Shown here piece after piece: positions 40,294-54,936 of a stretch of 64,000 nt of DNA (position 1 is the first letter of the stretch; each line of letters starts with the position of its first letter). This DNA comes from an uncultured Lachnospiraceae bacterium. Lineage in GTDB: Bacteria > Bacillota > Clostridia > Lachnospirales > Lachnospiraceae. Below the pieces are notes generated by a model. The model searched no databases and was not told the origin of the DNA. It saw only the letters and a program-made list of their open reading frames with translations. Where the stretch lies: assembly GCA_947384285.1 (NCBI GenBank), contig CANDGI010000012.1:1-64000 (forward strand), in the 5' to 3' direction. The translations under genes were made by a program, and so were the position numbers.

Positions 40294-40390
40294 CTCTTAT
40301 TCAGAGTGGTGGAGATACATAGGATCTGTGAAGCCACGGCAACCCCTCTACGGAAGGTGCCAACCTGAGCGAGCAATCGAACAATAAGAG
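40294..40390 (+). ncRNA. SAM-I riboswitch (S-box)
   Basis: The closing helix CTCTTATT/AATAAGAG encloses the S-box core: AGAGTGGTGGAG, GAAGCCACGGCAACC and AAGGTGCCAACCTGAGCGA. The motif binds S-adenosylmethionine and turns transcription off when it is abundant. It lies upstream of metK, a classic S-box target. Confidence 0.95.
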
Positions 40391-46509: not shown

Positions 46510-47541
46510 ATGAAAAAAGAAGCAAAAGAAAGCATGCGGAGCATAGGAAAAGTTCTGGGAATTACCCTTATTGTTTATGCTGGCATCCGCTGGCTGCTCC
46601 CATTGGTAATTCCCTTTTTTATTGCCTTTTTACTGGCAAAATTTTTGAATCCGCTGGTAGAGAAACTAGAGAATAAATTAAAACTGAAGAGAAGCATATG
46701 GTCCTCATTGCTGGTAGGAATGCTGCTGCTGCTCTTAGGATTTGCTGTATTTTTTTTCCTGAAAACGCTGATTGAGCAGATGAAGCATGTGATGGATAAT
46801 CTGGATTTGTACAGACAGCAGGCAGGAGAGTTTTGGCAGGAATGCTGCTGCCAGATTGAGAACATGACCGGGATAGAGGCAAGGATGATCCAGCATGGCG
46901 TGGAAAAGCAGCTGCCGGAAATGATGAATCATGCAAAGCAGAATGTGATTCCCGCCGTGATGAATGGCACCATTCTGTACGCAAAAAATATATTTGTATT
47001 TCTGGGCGTCTGTTTTGTGGTGGTGATCAGCACAATCCTCATTCTAAAGGATTATAAGAAAATGCGGGCGGCTCTGGAACATCATCCGGTTGGAAGCATG
47101 GCTTTAAAAGTCTGCCGCAGGGCTTATGAAGCCGGGGGAGCCTATATCAAATCCCAGATTATCATCATGATCATTATCACAGCCATTTGTGTATTAGGCT
47201 TATATTTTTCCGGGAACGAATATGCATTGCTGGCAGGCTGCGGAATTGGAATTTGTGATGCAATGCCTTTTTTGGGAACCGGCACGATTTTTGTGCCCTG
47301 GGCGGTAATTGAGCTGATTCAGGGAAAATATATGCTGGCGGCAATCTATACGGTTATTTATACGGTTTGCAGCCTGATGCGTGAGATCCTGGAGCCAAAG
47401 CTTCTGGGCAATAAGCTGGGGATGCATCCTCTGGCTGTCATTGTCAGCATGTATGTGGGTTTGGAAATTTATGGTTTGTGGGGATTTGCCCTTGGCCCCC
47501 TTTCCTATATTTTGATAAAGGAAATCTATTTGGTGGCTTGA
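46510..47541 (+). CDS. AI-2E family transporter, YtvI-like
   Basis: A 343-residue protein with about seven to eight membrane segments, starting with two at about 13-35 and 60-82. Conserved segments are FLLAKFLNPLVEKLE and the C-terminal LGNKLGMHPLAVIVSMYVGL. Family members export small solutes or, in spore formers, support sporulation (YtvI). The sequence is close enough to YtvI for that suggestion, but this is inference. It lies upstream of the T-box leader of proS. Confidence 0.85.
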   Translation: MKKEAKESMRSIGKVLGITLIVYAGIRWLLPLVIPFFIAFLLAKFLNPLVEKLENKLKLKRSIWSSLLVGMLLLLLGFAVFFFLKTLIEQMKHVMDNLDLYRQQAGEFWQECCCQIENMTGIEARMIQHGVEKQLPEMMNHAKQNVIPAVMNGTILYAKNIFVFLGVCFVVVISTILILKDYKKMRAALEHHPVGSMALKVCRRAYEAGGAYIKSQIIIMIIITAICVLGLYFSGNEYALLAGCGIGICDAMPFLGTGTIFVPWAVIELIQGKYMLAAIYTVIYTVCSLMREILEPKLLGNKLGMHPLAVIVSMYVGLEIYGLWGFALGPLSYILIKEIYLVA

Positions 47542-47555
47542 CAATTGAGGGACTT

Positions 47556-47705
47556 TGGCTTAGAATAACCCTTATATAAAAACACAATTGGCAAAGAAAA
47601 GTGTCAGTCCAGACAGGAAGATAAGGATTTTGGTTCAGAACAACTCTTATATAAAAACAAAAATGGCAAGGAAAAGGACTAGTACAGACAGGAAGATGCA
47701 CAGAG
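47556..47705. repeat. 75-bp tandem duplication upstream of proS T-box
   Basis: Two units (47556-47630 and 47631-47705) share CTTATATAAAAAC, the GGCAA-GAAAAG block and CAGACAGGAAGAT, with about 75 percent identity by eye. The second unit runs into the beginning of the T-box. Confidence 0.75.
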
Positions 47706-47882
47706 AGGAAATCAGCGGTGAGAGATTTTCCATACGAATATCTGGAACCTGCCTTGGAGCTGCGTATGAAAGTACGACGTTTTGCCGCGTTAAGGCGATT
47801 GAGAGAATGAAAGCATGTTCATTAATCAGGGTGGTACCGCCGGATATCCGGTCCCTATTGGGATTGGATGTCCGTTTTTTTA
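47688..47882 (+). ncRNA. T-box leader for proS
   Basis: It has the T-box start (CAGAGAGG and GCGGTGAGAG), the antiterminator sequence AGGGTGGTACCGC at 47828-47840, and a terminator (CGGATATCCGGTCCC with GGGATTGGATGTCCG, then T7). A CCT in GAACCTGCC near 47747 is a candidate proline specifier. Uncharged tRNA-Pro should open proS expression; tRNA-Pro(CGG) is encoded at 62.5 kb. Confidence 0.9.
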
Positions 47883-47909
47883 TCTATAGGAGCTTGCCAA
47901 CAGGTTTTT

Positions 47910-47962
47910 GCGCAAAACAGTATAATTTTTATATCACGCTTTTCTGGTTTATCCAGGTTAGG
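47910..47962. repeat. 53-bp dispersed repeat, copy 2
   Basis: See the related copy at 43299-43351. This one lies between the T-box terminator and the proS ribosome site, so it is part of the proS leader RNA. The word ATCCAGGTTAGG is directly followed by aaaggagagg. Confidence 0.75.
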
Positions 47963-47976
47963 AAAGGAGAGGTAAA

Positions 47977-49419
47977 ATGGCGAAAGAAAAAAAATTAGTG
48001 GAGGCAATTACATCCATGGAGGATGATTTTGCACAATGGTATACGGATGTAGTGAAAAAAGCGGAGCTGATTGATTATTCCAGCGTAAAGGGATGCATGG
48101 TAATTAAGCCGGCAGGCTACGCAATCTGGGAAAATATCCAGAAAGAGCTGGATAGAAGGTTTAAGGAAACGGGAGTGGAGAATGTATATATGCCCATGTT
48201 TATCCCAGAGAGCTTGCTGCAGAAAGAAAAAGACCATGTAGAAGGATTTGCGCCGGAGGTAGCCTGGGTAACCCATGGAGGGCTGAATCCGCTGCAGGAG
48301 AGGATGTGCGTCAGGCCCACATCAGAGACATTGTTCTGTGATTTTTATGCAAATGATATCCAATCTTACCGGGATTTGCCCAAATGCTACAATCAGTGGT
48401 GTTCTGTGGTCCGCTGGGAAAAGGAAACCAGGCCTTTCCTGCGCTCCAGGGAATTTCTATGGCAGGAGGGGCATACCGCCCACGCTGCCGCAGAGGAAGC
48501 AGAAGAAAGAACCCTTCAAATGCTGCATCTTTACGCCGATTTTTGCGAAGAGGTGCTGGCAATGCCTGTGATTAGAGGAAAAAAGACCGATAAGGAGAAG
48601 TTTGCCGGGGCAGAGGCCACCTATACGATTGAGGCATTGATGCACGATGGAAAAGCACTTCAATCCGGCACCAGCCACAACTTTGGGGATGGGTTTGCAA
48701 AAGCCTTTGGCATCCAATATACCGATAAAGATAATAAGCTGCAATATGTCCATCAGACCTCCTGGGGAATGACGACCCGGCTGATTGGGGCGATTATTAT
48801 GGTGCATGGGGATGATTCCGGTTTGGTGCTTCCGCCAAGGATTGCTCCCACCCAGGTCATGGTAATTCCTATCCAGCAGCATAAGGAAGGAGTGCTGGAG
48901 AAAGCAGGCGAATTAAAAGATGCGCTGAAAAATGCAGGAATCCGGGTGAAAATGGACGACAGTGAAAAGAGCCCCGGATGGAAGTTCTCTGAGCAGGAGA
49001 TGCGCGGAATTCCCATTCGCGTGGAATTGGGACCGAAGGATATTGCCGAAGGGAAATGTGTGCTGGTGCGCCGGGATACCAGAGAAAAAACCCAGTGTGC
49101 GCTGGAAGAAGCAGCCTCCGTTGCAGCAGAATTGTTAGAGACAATCCAAAAGGAAATGTTTGACCGGGCAAAGGAACATCAAAAATCCCACATGACAGAT
49201 GCCAGGTCTTATGAAGAATTCAAGGATGCTGTGGAGCATAAGCCAGGATTTATCCGCGCTATGTGGTGCGGGGATGTGGAATGCGAAAATAAGATTAAAG
49301 AAGACACAACAGCTACCTCCCGCTGTATGCCTTTGGAGGATCAGGAAGCAGTTTCAGATGTATGTGTGTGCTGTGGAAAACCAGCTCATAAATTGGTTTA
49401 TTGGGGAAAAGCATATTAA
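47977..49419 (+). CDS. proS: Prolyl-tRNA synthetase, short (type 3) form
   Basis: A 480-residue class II synthetase of the eukaryote/archaeon-like type without the editing insertion of the bacterial long form. Motif 2 includes [20 protein letters not shown], motif 3 includes [17 protein letters not shown], and there is an anticodon-binding domain plus a C-terminal zinc-type region ([34 protein letters not shown]). It charges tRNA-Pro. aaaggagagg precedes the ATG, and the T-box controls it. Confidence 0.95.
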
Positions 49420-49477
49420 TTACGGAGGAAAATAGTGATATTGGGGAAGAACATATTAATTCAGCGGAAAAAGTGAT
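49400..49477. repeat. 39-bp duplication of proS 3' end
   Basis: TTGGGGAAAAGCATATTAAT, the end of proS, is repeated in altered form 39 bases downstream (TTGGGGAAGAACATATTAAT), including the GGAAAA and GTGATA words that follow. A third start of the unit (TTGGGTATAGG) is visible. Confidence 0.75.
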
Positions 49478-49529
49478 ATTGGGTATAGGCAGGAAAACAG
49501 CAGGTTCTTTCTTACACGAATAAAAATTC

Positions 49530-50380
49530 ACACAACAAAAGGCTGCACTGACATCAATTTCATCTAGTGCAGCCTTCTATACTATACTGTCCACGGGAAT
49601 TTACCTCGTTCTTTCCGAAATCTTGATTCTTTCCTGAGAAATTTGTTACCTCTGAATAAAATGGTACGTATCCATATGATGAATGAATCTTACTGGAATA
49701 TCATACACTCTTCTCTTTTCAATTACTGATTCAGGGCTTCTTTTGAAAATCCTCTTGATTTCTGTTTACTATGAAAATCTTCGACTTCCATAGCAGGGAT
49801 GGCCATGCGGCCTGTCACACAATAGGTTAAATATAATGGAGAGTGTTACTATAAAAGCCTCCAACTTCCTATAGTGGGATTACCATGCTACCTACCGGAC
49901 GGCAGGATAAATATGATGGTGAATCACTTTCTTCTTATCTTTTACTTTCAATCTGCAAATCTCTTGTAGAACTCTGTCTGGAACACTTGATAGTTGTTTT
50001 TATCTTGGTTTTATTTCCCCATTCCGAAAATATAAGATCGGATGTTACCACGTTTGTTAATATCTATTTCAGATACCATCAGGTTGGATAATAACCTTAT
50101 TATAATTTCCCATTCCGAAAATTCAACTTCTAATATCGACATCTAAAAACTATTCTATTTCAGAAATTCAACTTTCGTTTTGCATCTTCAAAGTTCCTGA
50201 TAAGGAAGAAGCCAGTTCCATTTGTCTTGTACCTCTAATAATAATTGAGGGAAGTTAATTTAGGTTTTTGGTGGTCCGTACCTTCCTTTCTTAAATTATG
50301 AGATATTTCATTCTGTTCTCGGTGGTCTGTACCTCCTTCTTTAGATTTTGTTGTGTGTTTGTTGTTTCTTTGTTTTGATG
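49530..50380 (-). ncRNA. Candidate large structured non-coding RNA
   Basis: About 850 nt between a consensus promoter at 50386-50414 and a terminator hairpin at 49538-49576, all on the minus strand. No reading frame above about 68 codons lies within it, and none has a ribosome site. It contains GGAGGTACAGACCACC and a second form 51 nt further on; two TTTTCGGAATGGG words; and two tandem modules (49769-49800 and 49849-49880) with a conserved GCATGG-x2-ATCCC and a helix that changes on both sides (CTATG/CATAG against CTATA/TATAG). The base composition is lower in GC than the neighbours. Size and architecture recall OLE, GOLLD and ROOL RNAs; I cannot assign it to a family from memory. Confidence 0.7.
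49538..49576 (-). terminator. Terminator of candidate large RNA
   Basis: AAGGCTGCACT and AGTGCAGCCTT form an 11-bp stem. On the minus strand the stem runs into TTTTGTTGTG. It can also end proS transcription from the other side, although the T run there is weaker. Confidence 0.8.
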
Positions 50381-50385
50381 AGTTC

Positions 50386-50414
50386 ATTATATCTAATAAA
50401 AAACAAAATGTCAA
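50386..50414 (-). promoter_or_regulatory. Consensus promoter of candidate large RNA
   Basis: On the minus strand, TTGACA (50414-50409), a 17-bp spacer and TATAAT (50391-50386). All twelve positions match the sigma-A consensus. It is one of the strongest promoters readable in the window and has no coding region after it. Confidence 0.88.
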
Positions 50415-50582
50415 CAACTATTTTAAAAATTTTATATTAAAGATACTTATAATTAAAATAATACAAATAAGCTTAAAAATATTCTGAAAATTAAACAGCT
50501 TCTAAAAGAATAACTGACAGCATCTATTTCAACCCCAGTCAACTCCCCCAGCAGGCAATCCATATTCTAATACACAGGAAAG

Positions 50583-50632
50583 GCAGGAGGACCCGCTGCC
50601 TAAGCAAACCATTCATGGGCTCTCCTGCCTTG
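50583..50632 (-). terminator. Hairpin after ABC exporter remnant
   Basis: AAGGCAGGAG and CTCCTGCCTT are inverted arms of 10 bp around a 30-nt interior. It lies just after the minus-strand ABC ATPase frame. The flanking 50415-50582 is AT-rich and holds no gene I can support. Confidence 0.6.
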
Positions 50633-50649
50633 GCCTTCGTATCCATATA

Positions 50650-51577
50650 TTAAAGGTTTTCCTTCTCCTTCTGATACAGCTCCAGGAAATAGCTATTGCC
50701 TGCCAGCAGCTCCTCAAAGGTTCCATGCCCAGCAATCTTTCCATCACGAAATACGAAAATCTGATCAAAGTCCCGGATGGAAGCCAGGTGATGGGCAATT
50801 GCTATGACAGAAGCCTGGCTTGCCTGCGCTAAAACATTTTTCATGACAATCCGTTCTGTCACATTGTCCAATGCTGATGTTGCTTCGTCCAGGACAACTA
50901 TTTGGGAATCATCAAACCACAGCCTTGCCAATGCCAGCCTCTGCTGTTCGCCGCCGGATAAGAGGGTTCCCTTTTCTCCGATTATTGTATCCAATCCATG
51001 GCTCAGTGACGCAAGCAAGGGCTGCAATTGCGTGGCTTCAAGGCTTGCATAAATATCTTCATCAGGAACTTCTTTGTCAAATACCAGGTTTTCCCGGAGT
51101 GTTCCATTGAATACAGGAGTGTTCTGGGAGAAATAGGATGCCTTTTCATATAAGGATTCCAAGGAAAAGCTTTTCAGCGGCTTATGGTCAAAAAGAATCT
51201 CGCCCTCCTCATATTTGAGCAATCCAATCAGCGCCTTTGCCAATGTGGATTTTCCAGAGCCCGATTCACCTACAAATGCTGTTTTTTCTCCCTTTCGGAT
51301 TGTCAGCTGAAGAGATTGAAAAATTTTCTCACCTTTGAAGCCACATTTCATTTTCCAATTTTGCTGCAGGGTACTCATCCAGGTAGTTTATGCCATAATC
51401 AACAACCAGGATCGTGCCGTAAAACAGGATTCCGTAAATGGTAATGGTCTGATCCGTCAGTCCGTCTACGATTTTCTGAAAATAGCCTGCCTTATAATTG
51501 GCCAGGAACGCATTGAATAATCCAATTGCCAGATATACAATCACAAGGTTCCTGTTATTTTTTAAAATTTCTTTCAT
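50650..51577 (-). pseudogene. ABC exporter gene with internal deletion and frameshift
   Basis: The frame from 51577 (MKEILKNNRNLVIVYLAIGL, with aggtgg upstream) encodes the first part of an exporter membrane domain and stops near 51329 after KLENEMWLQR. The overlapping frame down to 50650 encodes an almost complete ATPase: Walker A GESGSGKST, Q-loop FSQNTPVFNG, signature LLSGGEQQRLALARL, Walker B IVVLDEATSALD and the H-loop AHHLAS. Around 200 residues of membrane domain are missing, and the two parts are out of frame. The ATPase half might still be translated from an internal start, but it lacks a complete channel. Confidence 0.75.
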
Positions 51578-51735
51578 AAAATGAGCCACCTCAATTCTGT
51601 ATGAAATATTCGCATGATTCATTATAGCATACGTCCCATTCCCTGCAAGGACAGTATATCCAGAAAATCAGGTTGACCTTATGGTTTTTAGGTATATAAT
51701 AGTAAGAAAGGGGAACGGGAAGGAGAAGTGTTTGA

Positions 51736-54700
51736 ATGGAAAATCTGCAAAAGAAGAAAATATGGGGAAAAGGAATTGTCTGCATTCTTTTCTGGCTGTT
51801 TTTTGCAGCAGCTCCGCTTTGCGCCCATGCGGCAGAGGAGGATTTGGAGACAGCGATTTATGGTCTGGACAGCAAAGCGCAGGAAGTGTTAAGCATACCG
51901 GGAAATCTGCCCCAAAGTTACCAGATTCCAACGGGAAGCAATGCAGCATACAGTGTGGTAAGCGGCAAATCTGTAAAGGTTTCAGCCGATGGGCTGGTTA
52001 CGCCCAAATACACCTATTGGAAGAAATATCCCGGTTATAGTTCATCTGTGCCGGAAGGGCAGGAATATGATTATTATACGTTGAACGAGGGAGATGCCAG
52101 GATTGCAGTAAAGACCCGGGAAGGGACATTTTATGTTACGGTGCATGTTAAGGATTACGAAATTACTTATTGTGATGAGGTTATGGACGCATATATAAAT
52201 GAAAATATTACGGCTTCCATGACAGATGAGGAAATTATGAATGCAATTGCCAGGTTTCCGGCAAGGTATGATTATTCGGCTTCCTATTCCAGCGCTTATT
52301 CCATGATATTATATGGCGGCGGCGACTGCTGGGCCAGTACAGGCGCAATCATAACACTGTGTGAGAAAATGGGAATCAAAGCCTGGGCAAGAAATGGAAA
52401 CAAGGATCCTGGAGCCGGCGGCGGGCATATGAACGCCATGGCAGAATTAAATGGAACTTATTATGAACTGGAAGCAGGATTTTCTATGGAAAAAGGAGAG
52501 GATGGATACCGGCCTTATTCTGTTGCAGTAAGGGAATCCCTGTTTAGCTATTATGTATCCTCCGGCAGCGTTACGATTTATCAGTATGATGGATATGACA
52601 GCTCTGGAGTGCTGGAAGTGCCGGAAACCATTGACGGCAGGACAGTAACAGGAATTGCAGAGAGAACCTTCAGCCGCGCTCAATTTTCGGAAATCAGGCT
52701 GCCGGACACCCTGGCTGAAATAGGGGATTTTGCATTCAGCGCTTGCGGGAACTTAACCAGTATGGAGCTTCCAGCCTCCCTTGCATCTATTGGAAAGGGT
52801 GCGTTTGCCAGCTGTGAAAAGCTGACGGGCCTTTCCATGGCAGACGGGAATGAAAATTATCAGATACAGGATCAGGTCATTTACAGCAAGGATGGAACCA
52901 CGCTGGCTGCCTGCCCGGTGTCCGGGAATATTACAATTCCATCCACAGTCACGAAGATTGCGGATTACGCGTTTTATTATAATGAAAATCTTACAAGCAT
53001 TGTGATTCCCCAGTCGGTGGCAGAACTGGGGGAAGGGGCATTTGGAAACTGCACCCAGTTGTCCAAGGTAACTTTTGAAGGAAATGGAATCACCAGCATT
53101 GGGAATTTCTGTTTTAAGGATGACAGCTCCCTTTTTGTGCTGAGACTCCCGGCTTCTGTAAAAGCAATAGGCGCTATGGCATTTGATAGCTGCCGTTGTT
53201 TAAAATATATTTACTTTCTGGGGGATGCGCCGGAATTCGGGGCGACGGTAGAGGGCGTTTTCTATGACCGGGTGTTTGAAGGATGCAATGTCAATGCCTA
53301 TTATATCAATGGAAATGCTGCCTGGACGCAGGAAAACCTGACAGATCACGGCGGCACAGTTGTTTGGTCTTTCTGGGACGGCATGCAGGGGAAAACCATT
53401 GAGCAGGGGGTTTTGACGCTGGAAAAGGATTCTTATACCTTTAAGGGCAGAGAGATAAAACCAGCGGTGACGCTTACGGTAGACGGCCTGGTTTTGGAGG
53501 AAAATAAAGATTTTGTGGTAAACTACCTTCATAACATAAACGCTGGTACCGCAACTGTTACAGCCATGGGAATTGGTTCCTATTACGGGGACATCCAGAT
53601 GCCTTTTACTATTGCAAAGGCAGAAGGAAACGTCAGGGTTTCTTTGAATTCCAATAAGATTATGGAGAAAGATGATACAAAAGTCCTTTATTATGGAAAT
53701 GTATTTGGAACCTGTACCTATCAATCAGACAATCCATCGGTAGCAGCCGTGGACAGTGAAGGGAATGTCAGAGGAATTTCCGCAGGAACAGCGAATATTA
53801 TCCTGGAATTTCCAGAGTCCGCAAATTATCTTGCGGTAACCGGAAAGGTGCAGGTTACAGTGACCCATGATAGCAGCGGACAGGTTGTGGACGCAGCGGT
53901 GGTGGATGGATGCATTAAAATGAAGTGCAGCCGCTGCAGCCAGATTTGCAATATGACGGTGCCCACAAGGTATGAGCTTTATTGGTTAAAGGGTGAGGAA
54001 ATTTATCCTTTCAACCCCGGCAGCAAATATAAAGCTGGAGATATTTTAGAGTGTGAATGTTATGATGTTTCTGATGCTGATTTGGGGGAAATGGAGGTTA
54101 TCTCCCAGGATACCAATGTCATTCGGATTACAGAAAACAGGTATTTGAATTTTATTGCAGATGGAGTTGGGCGCGTGACGGTTCGACCTAAGTATCATCC
54201 GGCAATTGGGAAAACCTTCACCTTCTATGTGGGAAATGCTGCGGATCAAGCGGAAGACGGCAAAGAAGACGGCAAAGAAGACGGGAAGCAGGAAGACGGC
54301 AAAGAGGACGGGAAACAAGAAGATAGCAAGCAGGAAAATGAGGGGCAGGCCAATGCCAGCAGCAGGAAGTATTATGATAAGAAAACAGGAATCACTATTT
54401 CCGTCAATGGAAAAGGAAAAAAAGAAGCTGCCCTGGTAAAAGTGGATAACAAACATGCCAAAGGAACGTTCAAAGTGCCGGACACATTGAAAGCAAAAGG
54501 AAAAACATATAAGCTTACTGCAATCGGCAAAAATGCCTTTAAGAACCAAAAGCAGCTGAAAAAGGTTGTAATCGGAAAGAATATCAAAAGGATAGACGAG
54601 GGTGCTTTTTACGGCTGTGAAAGGCTGCAGAGTGTCACCGGTGGAAAGAATATTACCGCAATTGGAAGCAAGGCCTTTTATAAATGCAGAAAACTCCTGA

Positions 54701-54936
54701 AGATTACGATTCCGTCTAAGGTTAATAAAATTGGAAAGAGTGCTTTTTATGGATGTAAAAGCCTAAAGAGCATTACGGTCCAGTCCAAAAAACTGACGAA
54801 AAAGAATGTGGGGAGCAAGGCTTTTCAGGGGATACATCCAAGAGCCGTTATCAAAGCGCCGAAAAGTAAGATTTCTGCATATAAGAAGCTGTTGAGGTCG
54901 AAAGGTGCGGGCGCGAAGGTGAGGTGGAAAAAGTAA
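51736..54936 (+). CDS. Secreted transglutaminase-like/leucine-rich-repeat protein
   Basis: A 1066-residue exported protein. The signal peptide is at about 1-32 (ends CAHAAEE). A transglutaminase-like domain covers about 145-260, with Cys198 in GGGDCWAS and His231 in GGGHMNAM; the third catalytic position reads YYELEAG, with Glu in place of the usual Asp. BspA-type leucine-rich repeats (LRR_5) lie at about 300-530, a Big_2-like Ig domain at about 640-715, and an acidic GKEDGK linker at about 838-870. A second LRR_5 block (about 900-1010) and a basic C-terminus complete it. It may bind host or cell-wall ligands; function is not known. Confidence 0.85.
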   Translation: MENLQKKKIWGKGIVCILFWLFFAAAPLCAHAAEEDLETAIYGLDSKAQEVLSIPGNLPQSYQIPTGSNAAYSVVSGKSVKVSADGLVTPKYTYWKKYPGYSSSVPEGQEYDYYTLNEGDARIAVKTREGTFYVTVHVKDYEITYCDEVMDAYINENITASMTDEEIMNAIARFPARYDYSASYSSAYSMILYGGGDCWASTGAIITLCEKMGIKAWARNGNKDPGAGGGHMNAMAELNGTYYELEAGFSMEKGEDGYRPYSVAVRESLFSYYVSSGSVTIYQYDGYDSSGVLEVPETIDGRTVTGIAERTFSRAQFSEIRLPDTLAEIGDFAFSACGNLTSMELPASLASIGKGAFASCEKLTGLSMADGNENYQIQDQVIYSKDGTTLAACPVSGNITIPSTVTKIADYAFYYNENLTSIVIPQSVAELGEGAFGNCTQLSKVTFEGNGITSIGNFCFKDDSSLFVLRLPASVKAIGAMAFDSCRCLKYIYFLGDAPEFGATVEGVFYDRVFEGCNVNAYYINGNAAWTQENLTDHGGTVVWSFWDGMQGKTIEQGVLTLEKDSYTFKGREIKPAVTLTVDGLVLEENKDFVVNYLHNINAGTATVTAMGIGSYYGDIQMPFTIAKAEGNVRVSLNSNKIMEKDDTKVLYYGNVFGTCTYQSDNPSVAAVDSEGNVRGISAGTANIILEFPESANYLAVTGKVQVTVTHDSSGQVVDAAVVDGCIKMKCSRCSQICNMTVPTRYELYWLKGEEIYPFNPGSKYKAGDILECECYDVSDADLGEMEVISQDTNVIRITENRYLNFIADGVGRVTVRPKYHPAIGKTFTFYVGNAADQAEDGKEDGKEDGKQEDGKEDGKQEDSKQENEGQANASSRKYYDKKTGITISVNGKGKKEAALVKVDNKHAKGTFKVPDTLKAKGKTYKLTAIGKNAFKNQKQLKKVVIGKNIKRIDEGAFYGCERLQSVTGGKNITAIGSKAFYKCRKLLKITIPSKVNKIGKSAFYGCKSLKSITVQSKKLTKKNVGSKAFQGIHPRAVIKAPKSKISAYKKLLRSKGAGAKVRWKK
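54246..54342. repeat. Coding repeats in acidic linker
   Basis: GAAGACGGCAAA-type units repeat six to seven times and encode Glu-Asp-Gly-Lys motifs between the Ig-like region and the second leucine-rich-repeat block. Confidence 0.75.

Follow-up and report, generated by a model that had tools for sequence, protein, structure and literature searches.

The window analysed here, a 64,000-nt stretch of a contig from an uncultured Lachnospiraceae bacterium, carries on its minus strand a predicted stand-alone RNA gene whose neighbours are proS (PF00587/PF09180), convergent with it, and a 242-aa ABC ATPase fragment (PF00005). The first-pass annotation had reported a promoter of TTGACA, 17-bp spacer and TATAAT, a terminator behind the RNA, and a decayed ABC exporter and proS beside it, and each of these was borne out. 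Three elements delimit the gene:

50386..50414, minus strand: sigma-A-type promoter TTGACA-17-TATAAT with an A/T-tract upstream region (promoter scan, genus loci)
49536..50379, minus strand: predicted transcript of about 844 nt, its ends inferred from promoter, terminator and conservation
49539..49576, minus strand: intrinsic terminator stem-loop AAGGCTGCACT/AGTGCAGCCTT, followed by a T-rich run (fold, covariation)

The promoter, read from 50414 to 50386, is the sole 12/12 match in the 6 kb of positions 47000-53000. The terminator stem has 16 pairs, of which 98.9% are paired across 22 sequences, with two-sided changes in two pairs; it was overlooked by a mechanical terminator scan because its loop is longer than 8 nt. 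The predicted RNA region folds better than 20/20 dinucleotide shuffles (z = -3.27), and, judging by its promoter, the RNA is likely to be abundant. Elsewhere in the window, a T-box leader (Rfam RF00230) lies upstream of proS at 47660-47859 (+), a SAM riboswitch (RF00162) at 40294-40390 (+), and a protein of 1066 aa, in which BspA-type leucine-rich repeats occur together with a Big_2 domain, adjoins the ABC fragment at 51736-54936 (+).

At the gathering score, Rfam 15 places no family over the RNA in the window or in eight genus loci, in agreement with the first-pass annotation, which could not match the RNA to OLE, GOLLD or ROOL. A relaxed search (E up to 10) gave seven matches in the RNA region, none at gathering score, and 20 loci from other genera gave three at E up to 0.1, all sub-gathering. 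One sub-gathering match, His_leader at 34.5 of 49 bits in locus L079, overlaps the 3' end of the RNA. The raiA motif (RF03072) had no match within the window, and a search of the window's own genome with it was silent, as equally were the control genomes. A literature search, with subscription journals and bioRxiv proper outside its reach, returned no description of the RNA. As for coding potential, the longest sense-strand ORFs inside the RNA are 60, 43 and 38 aa, and sense ORFs of at least 25 aa recur, in clusters found in up to 24/25 genus RNAs. No conserved long frame is seen, because the distance between the two strongest motifs (the GGAAUGG hairpins) takes all three residues modulo 3 among 21 sequences; on this spacing and on single-base indels within the 3' domain, a conserved longer protein was rejected, and no conserved frame with a conserved peptide was found. 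The earlier description of about 850 nt lacking a credible protein frame thus holds for long frames and fails for a conserved frame of five codons at 49594..49577, to which we return below.

Two models were used in what follows, R1 of the 3' domain and R2, a short model of the 3' end. A homologue of the RNA is present in 29/29 genomes of the window's genus by DNA search and R2 together: the DNA search of 61 genomes found it in 27, that is, in 27/29 of the genus and 0/32 others, and the two genus genomes that it missed were matched by R2. The near relative Lachnospiraceae bacterium 3-1 (locus L294) is 87% identical over 451 nt. The promoter reads TTGACA or TTGACT with a 17-nt spacer in all 25 of the 27 genus loci that are readable in full, where the pattern applied to the 27 itself demands AGATATAAT; of the other two, L033 has no terminator pattern and L052 begins within the RNA. 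Conserved islands in the genus alignment are the promoter, an upstream box, the 5' part, the two GGAAUGG hairpins, the 3' domain and the terminator, and locus L056 lacks much of the 5' half. The body of the RNA contains the following:

50105..50122, minus strand: hairpin AUUUUC-GGAAUG-GGAAAU, copy A, strongly conserved in the genus
50013..50031, minus strand: hairpin AUUUUC-GGAAUG-GGAAAU, copy B, strongly conserved in the genus
49764..49925, minus strand: inserted interspersed repeat of ~160 nt that comprises two ~78-nt units and does not occur in the RNAs of aligned relatives
49648..49737, minus strand: 3' domain, an outer stem GCCCUGAAU/AUUCAGAGGU around the stem GUAUG/CAUAC, with two-sided changes in both stems

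The repeat has 45 matching places in the window's own genome, itself included and many of them partial; in the sister genome G025, its matches are tandem and overlapping. Sister RNAs are 671-762 nt long in 19/24 cases (range 552-937). In the 3' domain, whose structure of 46 pairs was predicted from the same sequences on which covariation was counted, 96.9% of cells are paired, and 10 pairs with two-sided change and 19 two-sided cells compare with shuffle means of 2.7 and 3.1, respectively. Four of five measures were reached by 0/500 shuffles and the fifth by 7/500. When the structure was slid by 1-3 columns the scores were far lower, in part because it was derived from these sequences. The GUAUG/CAUAC stem escaped RNAalifold when the full alignment was used and was recovered from the 3' sub-alignment; for the 5' domain by itself, the genus alignment yielded no convincing consensus fold. 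The first-pass annotation had proposed looking in relatives for homologues and compensatory changes, and both are there: in the window's genus, the RNA is conserved with compensatory changes.

Beyond the genus, R1 matched 36/397 family genomes in 30/334 genera at E up to 0.001. Among 28 R1 matches from other genera that were read, a promoter of at least 10/12 lies within 900 nt in 26/28 and a 5' module is found by strict pattern in 23/28. All 28 have a 3' module whose NTG is followed by a stop at codon 6 or 7, this last count being anchored on CC..TGG. R2 matched 145/397 sampled Lachnospiraceae genomes, in 125/334 genera, and had no match in 252/397; in the window's own genome it matches one place at E below 0.9. 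In a class sample, R2 matched 10/391 genomes, of which four are family members; the other six matches were rejected, as they lie in or at the ends of apparent protein genes and have no 5' module (by eye). In one of these six, L146, a 12/12 promoter precedes a small protein frame. No credible member was thus found outside Lachnospiraceae in the class sample of 391 genomes. The E-values of both models are rough. Searches over 40 genomes apply stricter filters and may therefore have missed members. With a 24-base pattern taken from the 5' module only, at least 119 stretches were found in named genomes, most of them labelled Lachnospiraceae or Anaerobutyricum hallii, Eisenbergiella, Eubacterium ramulus, Sellimonas or Murimonas, which we take to be Lachnospiraceae, and a few labelled otherwise (Bacillus sp., Muribaculaceae and Acetivibrio bins); it had 0 matches in viral_contigs, where virus-borne copies were sought. 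We describe the RNA as the product of a predicted stand-alone gene; its family extends across Lachnospiraceae and is missing from Rfam 15. The sequences of this family are related, so that the counts given here are not independent events.

Measured from the best promoter within 1 kb, the median length is 379 nt (97 RNAs); overall, members range from about 123 nt up to 1050 nt. Those at the lower end (123, 135, 137 and 148 nt) consist of leader, one 5' module, 3' module and terminator, and therefore it is the modules that recur and not the middle, which in the other-genus loci read by eye is unlike that of the window. Of the large ornate RNA first envisaged, the stand-alone character and the strong promoter remain, and the RNA is conserved, whereas a resemblance to giant ornate classes such as OLE, ROOL and GOLLD is not apparent: length is variable, the recurring parts are short modules, and ~160 nt in the window are the inserted repeat. 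Some loci have unusual arrangements. In L111 (1709-1794; the same copy in L060), a second member of about 123 nt follows in tandem behind one of 426 nt, with its own promoter and the five-codon frame ATG GAC AAC CCA GTA TAA. In the genus of L141 and L147, the body has diverged (repeats of GTGGCTTAAGCTTCAC), but the Shine-Dalgarno sequence (SD), TTG and codon-6 stop before the terminator are kept, and genome G195 has three copies of the RNA (L090, L091 and L092), two of them about 16 kb apart.

The 3' module has the same layout across the family, namely an SD, an NTG, four to five codons and a stop at the terminator stem. In the window it comprises:

49604..49607, minus strand: SD core (GAGG) of the 3' module (alignment)
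49577..49594, minus strand: five-codon ORF GTG GAC AGT ATA GTA TAG, its frame conserved in homologues

The main set for this module is 102 aligned R2 matches from 100 loci, made up of 95 of at least 150 R2 places in the family sample, which were read only to rank 120 (E about 1e-5), and seven from the class sample, the genus and a second L199 place. The start place holds NTG in 99/102 (ATG 67, TTG 29, GTG 3, CTG 0; other 3), and the first in-frame stop falls at codon 6 in 85/102 and at codon 7 in 14/102. Both features occur together in 98/102, with TAG in 48, TAA in 42 and TGA in 8. No stop peak appears at this position in either of the other frames, save for stops spelled by the common ATAGTTTAG. 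Start codons lie 8-11 nt after the SD register in 85/98. Because R2 was trained on CC..TGG-anchored sequences, the count was repeated on an independent set of 119 listed loci, out of at least 119, that had been picked on the 5' module only. In this set, an R2 match (E up to 0.01) lies downstream on the same strand in 103/119, with NTG in 98/103 and NTG plus a stop at codon 6 or 7 in 93/103. Four of the 10 exceptions are NTG frames ending at codons 8-9. In L235, L274 and L301, by eye, the GTCC..TGGA wording is gone and an ATG...stop frame six codons long persists nearby, a pattern that speaks for a frame rather than for a mere RNA motif. Of the remaining three, L314 has a cut match, and neither L302 nor L324 has such a frame. 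Of the 16/119 loci that gave no R2 match, seven have less than 400 nt of sequence left and nine more than 800 nt. In 98/98 and 93/93 frames of the two sets, the first base of the terminator stem falls no more than 4 nt ahead of the stop codon's end and no more than 1 nt past it; in 61/98 it is the last stop base. With starts read as Met, there are 62 distinct peptides among 98 in the main set and 34 among 93 in the independent set. MDSIV is the commonest (17/98 and 24/93), and codon 2 is D or E in 93/98, whereas residues 3-5 vary even inside the window's genus. As read from these alignments, the frame of the 3' module is conserved and the peptide weakly so, because the 98/102 and 93/103 frames carry 62 and 34 peptides. 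A T-box-like pairing of UGGA with tRNA was dropped because of this frame evidence, and CsrA-type GGA sites were dropped because GGA varies within the module.

Near the 5' end of the window RNA are modules with an SD and, at the start place, no start codon:

50321..50338, minus strand: 5' module 1, AAGGAGGTACAGACCACC, with an SD, CCG at the start place and an in-frame TGA at codon 5
50270..50288, minus strand: 5' module 2, AAGGAAGGTACGGACCACC, SD-like, with CCA at the start place and an in-frame TAA at codon 4
50232..50250, minus strand: degenerate third module, a small CCUC/GAGG hairpin followed by TACAAG (alignment; pairing by eye)

Scored against a 16S tail that we assume from B. subtilis, 90 of 92 distinct 5' modules have a 5-9 nt match to its complement. 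The start place is CCN in 61, another non-start triplet in 19 and a start codon in 12, so that 80/92 have no start codon, and an in-frame stop stands at codon 4 in 64/92. An RNA has none to five such modules; by the one search pattern used, 15/102 have none. The CCN class is linked to an A before CC (40/46 vs 21/46 with another base, Fisher p = 5e-5, among related sequences); this A may allow GGU/ACC pairing and hence closed sites. In 24 genus RNAs, the 5' SD has a mean unpaired probability of 0.28 and the 3' SD one of 0.33. The 5' modules often read CCR-AAA-ACN-TAA, which is stricter than a plain SD would require and fits a hairpin or a protein site as well.

The sequences thus contain a promoter, the modules, a conserved ORF, a contact between its stop codon and the terminator, no fixed downstream gene and a family range. 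Our best reading, in which we place about half of our belief, is that the RNA docks 30S subunits and loads a ribosome on its terminal five-codon ORF, and that it thereby stabilizes itself and perhaps titrates ribosomes. The 5' modules, mostly start-less SDs, would dock 30S subunits, and the 3' module would load a ribosome that makes a peptide, likely a throw-away one, and halts against the hairpin; thus, both ends of the RNA would be shielded from exonucleases, as the 5' end of cry3A mRNA is by STAB-SD. With in-frame stops following within a few codons, ribosomes would not run on into the RNA body. Least certain is a further step, in which the occupied RNA would also withdraw some of the free 30S subunits, perhaps in response to nutrients through CodY. 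The minimal members of 123-148 nt favour ribosome engagement as such, whereas the conserved fold in the window's genus favours a body with its own task. Several observations count against the docking proposal: 15/102 RNAs have no 5' module by the search pattern, and the SDs are possibly closed; the peptide is partly constrained, with MDSIV the commonest and D/E at codon 2; the conserved middle and 3' fold in the window's genus are superfluous to it; and R2 finds no match in 252/397 genomes, while nine roomy loci have no 3' module. The wider claim, that such a ribosome dock is a new bacterial RNA class, made of start-less SD modules and a five-codon gene at the end, with selection acting on translation itself and on neither peptide nor fold, is possible but tentative.

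Four other explanations have to be weighed against ribosome docking. The RNA could be a structured scaffold-type non-coding RNA (OLE or raiA/ModT-like), with the fold doing the work and the ribosome modules stabilizing or insulating it. The covarying 3' domain of the genus (96.9% of cells paired, 10 two-sided pairs), the conserved GGAAUGG hairpins and the folding relative to shuffles speak for this, but the middle is dissimilar in the other-genus loci read and missing from the 123-148 nt members, and length spans 123-1050 nt; we hold this explanation to be rather unlikely. It is also conceivable, although we consider it distinctly unlikely, that the RNA acts as a sponge, taking up C-rich small RNAs or an RNA-binding protein that recognizes GGAGGUAC(A/G)G(A/U)CC. 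The GGTAC-R-G-W-CC wording asks for more than an SD does, and the CCN class is tied to the base that precedes CC (40/46 vs 21/46, p = 5e-5, in related sequences). However, a sponge leaves the start codons, frame and stops of the 3' module unexplained, and the frames survive where the motif is lost (L235, L274 and L301, by eye).

The other two explanations start from the mini-ORF itself. In a ribosome-controlled attenuator, its translation would hold the abutting terminator open so that transcription continues. A short ORF coupled to a terminator, as in leader attenuators, is indeed present, and the stop codon contacts the stem in 98/98 and 93/93; a regulated same-strand gene does not consistently follow, however: in 42/102 the next ORF lies on the opposite strand, the convergent proS of the window included, and neighbours vary by genus, which makes this explanation very improbable. 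Still less probable to us is an explanation in which the gene serves to make the formyl-pentapeptide, which might be a signal or regulator. The good SD, start codon and stop, D/E at codon 2 in 93/98 and MDSIV as the commonest sequence would suit it, whereas 62 peptides among 98 and 34 among 93, with residues 3-5 varying within the window's genus, would not.

OLE, ROOL and GOLLD are long stand-alone bacterial RNAs. The window RNA is likewise long and stands alone; unlike them, it has no covariance-model match, its length is not conserved and its core consists of short SD modules. Leader-peptide attenuators and phage-type minigenes have a very short ORF, and attenuators place the stop close to the terminator. 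The window-family RNA has a very short ORF in common with both and the nearness of stop and terminator in common with attenuators, but differs from them in having no fixed downstream target, a weakly conserved peptide and start-less SD modules upstream. According to PMC4113751, the STAB-SD of cry3A mRNA is a start-less SD near the 5' end at which 30S binding blocks RNase J1, and PMC7509114 describes SDs without start codons that stabilize other mRNAs in Bacillus. In common with the cry3A STAB-SD of Bacillus thuringiensis, the family has, near its 5' end, strong SDs that mostly lack a start codon and, as far as sequence alone can tell, would not direct initiation. The STAB-SD, in contrast, lies in the leader of a protein mRNA, whereas the window-family RNA stands alone and has none to five sites and a terminal mini-ORF. 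The raiA motif/ModT RNA (RF03072), described as widespread in Bacillota in PMC11706538, resembles the window RNA as a widespread Bacillota RNA, but has another architecture, and the window contains no match to RF03072.

Lachnospiraceae count among the principal animal-gut bacteria, and more than one third of the sampled family genomes (145/397) match the predicted RNA, for which Rfam 15 has no name. If the docking proposal is true, the RNA would set the numbers of free ribosomes or 30S subunits in a dominant gut family, and this setting may answer to CodY in part of the family. A frame kept in 98/102 with 62 peptides would then show selection on ribosome loading and stopping as such, and the family would offer a direct test of whether start-less SDs and mini-ORFs control ribosome supply or RNA life-time.

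CodY control of the RNA is partly supported by sequence motifs upstream of the promoter. The best promoter within 1 kb upstream scores 12/12 in 56/102 RNAs and 11/12 in 33/102. In the window, it is preceded by one further element:

50478..50492, minus strand: CodY-box-like motif AATTTTCAGAATATT, 78 bp upstream of the -35

This motif matches 14/15 of AATTTTCWGAAAATT, which we take to be the CodY-box consensus, and is conserved in the genus; CodY is encoded in the window's own genome. CodY-like boxes of at least 13/15 occur upstream in 23/96 regions vs 21/1920 Markov shuffles, and 13/23 lie 76-79 bp upstream of the -35 (one promoter counted twice). Of the 102 RNAs, 59 are followed by a same-strand ORF, 42 by one on the opposite strand and 1 by none, and a fixed downstream target gene was rejected on the 59 vs 42 split. 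Gene neighbours differ between genera. A SecA-like protein lies within a few genes of the RNA in the window's genus and in 5/20 other-genus loci, and in some loci with this neighbour a TSCPD protein is also near the RNA, both labels resting on one member tested per cluster.
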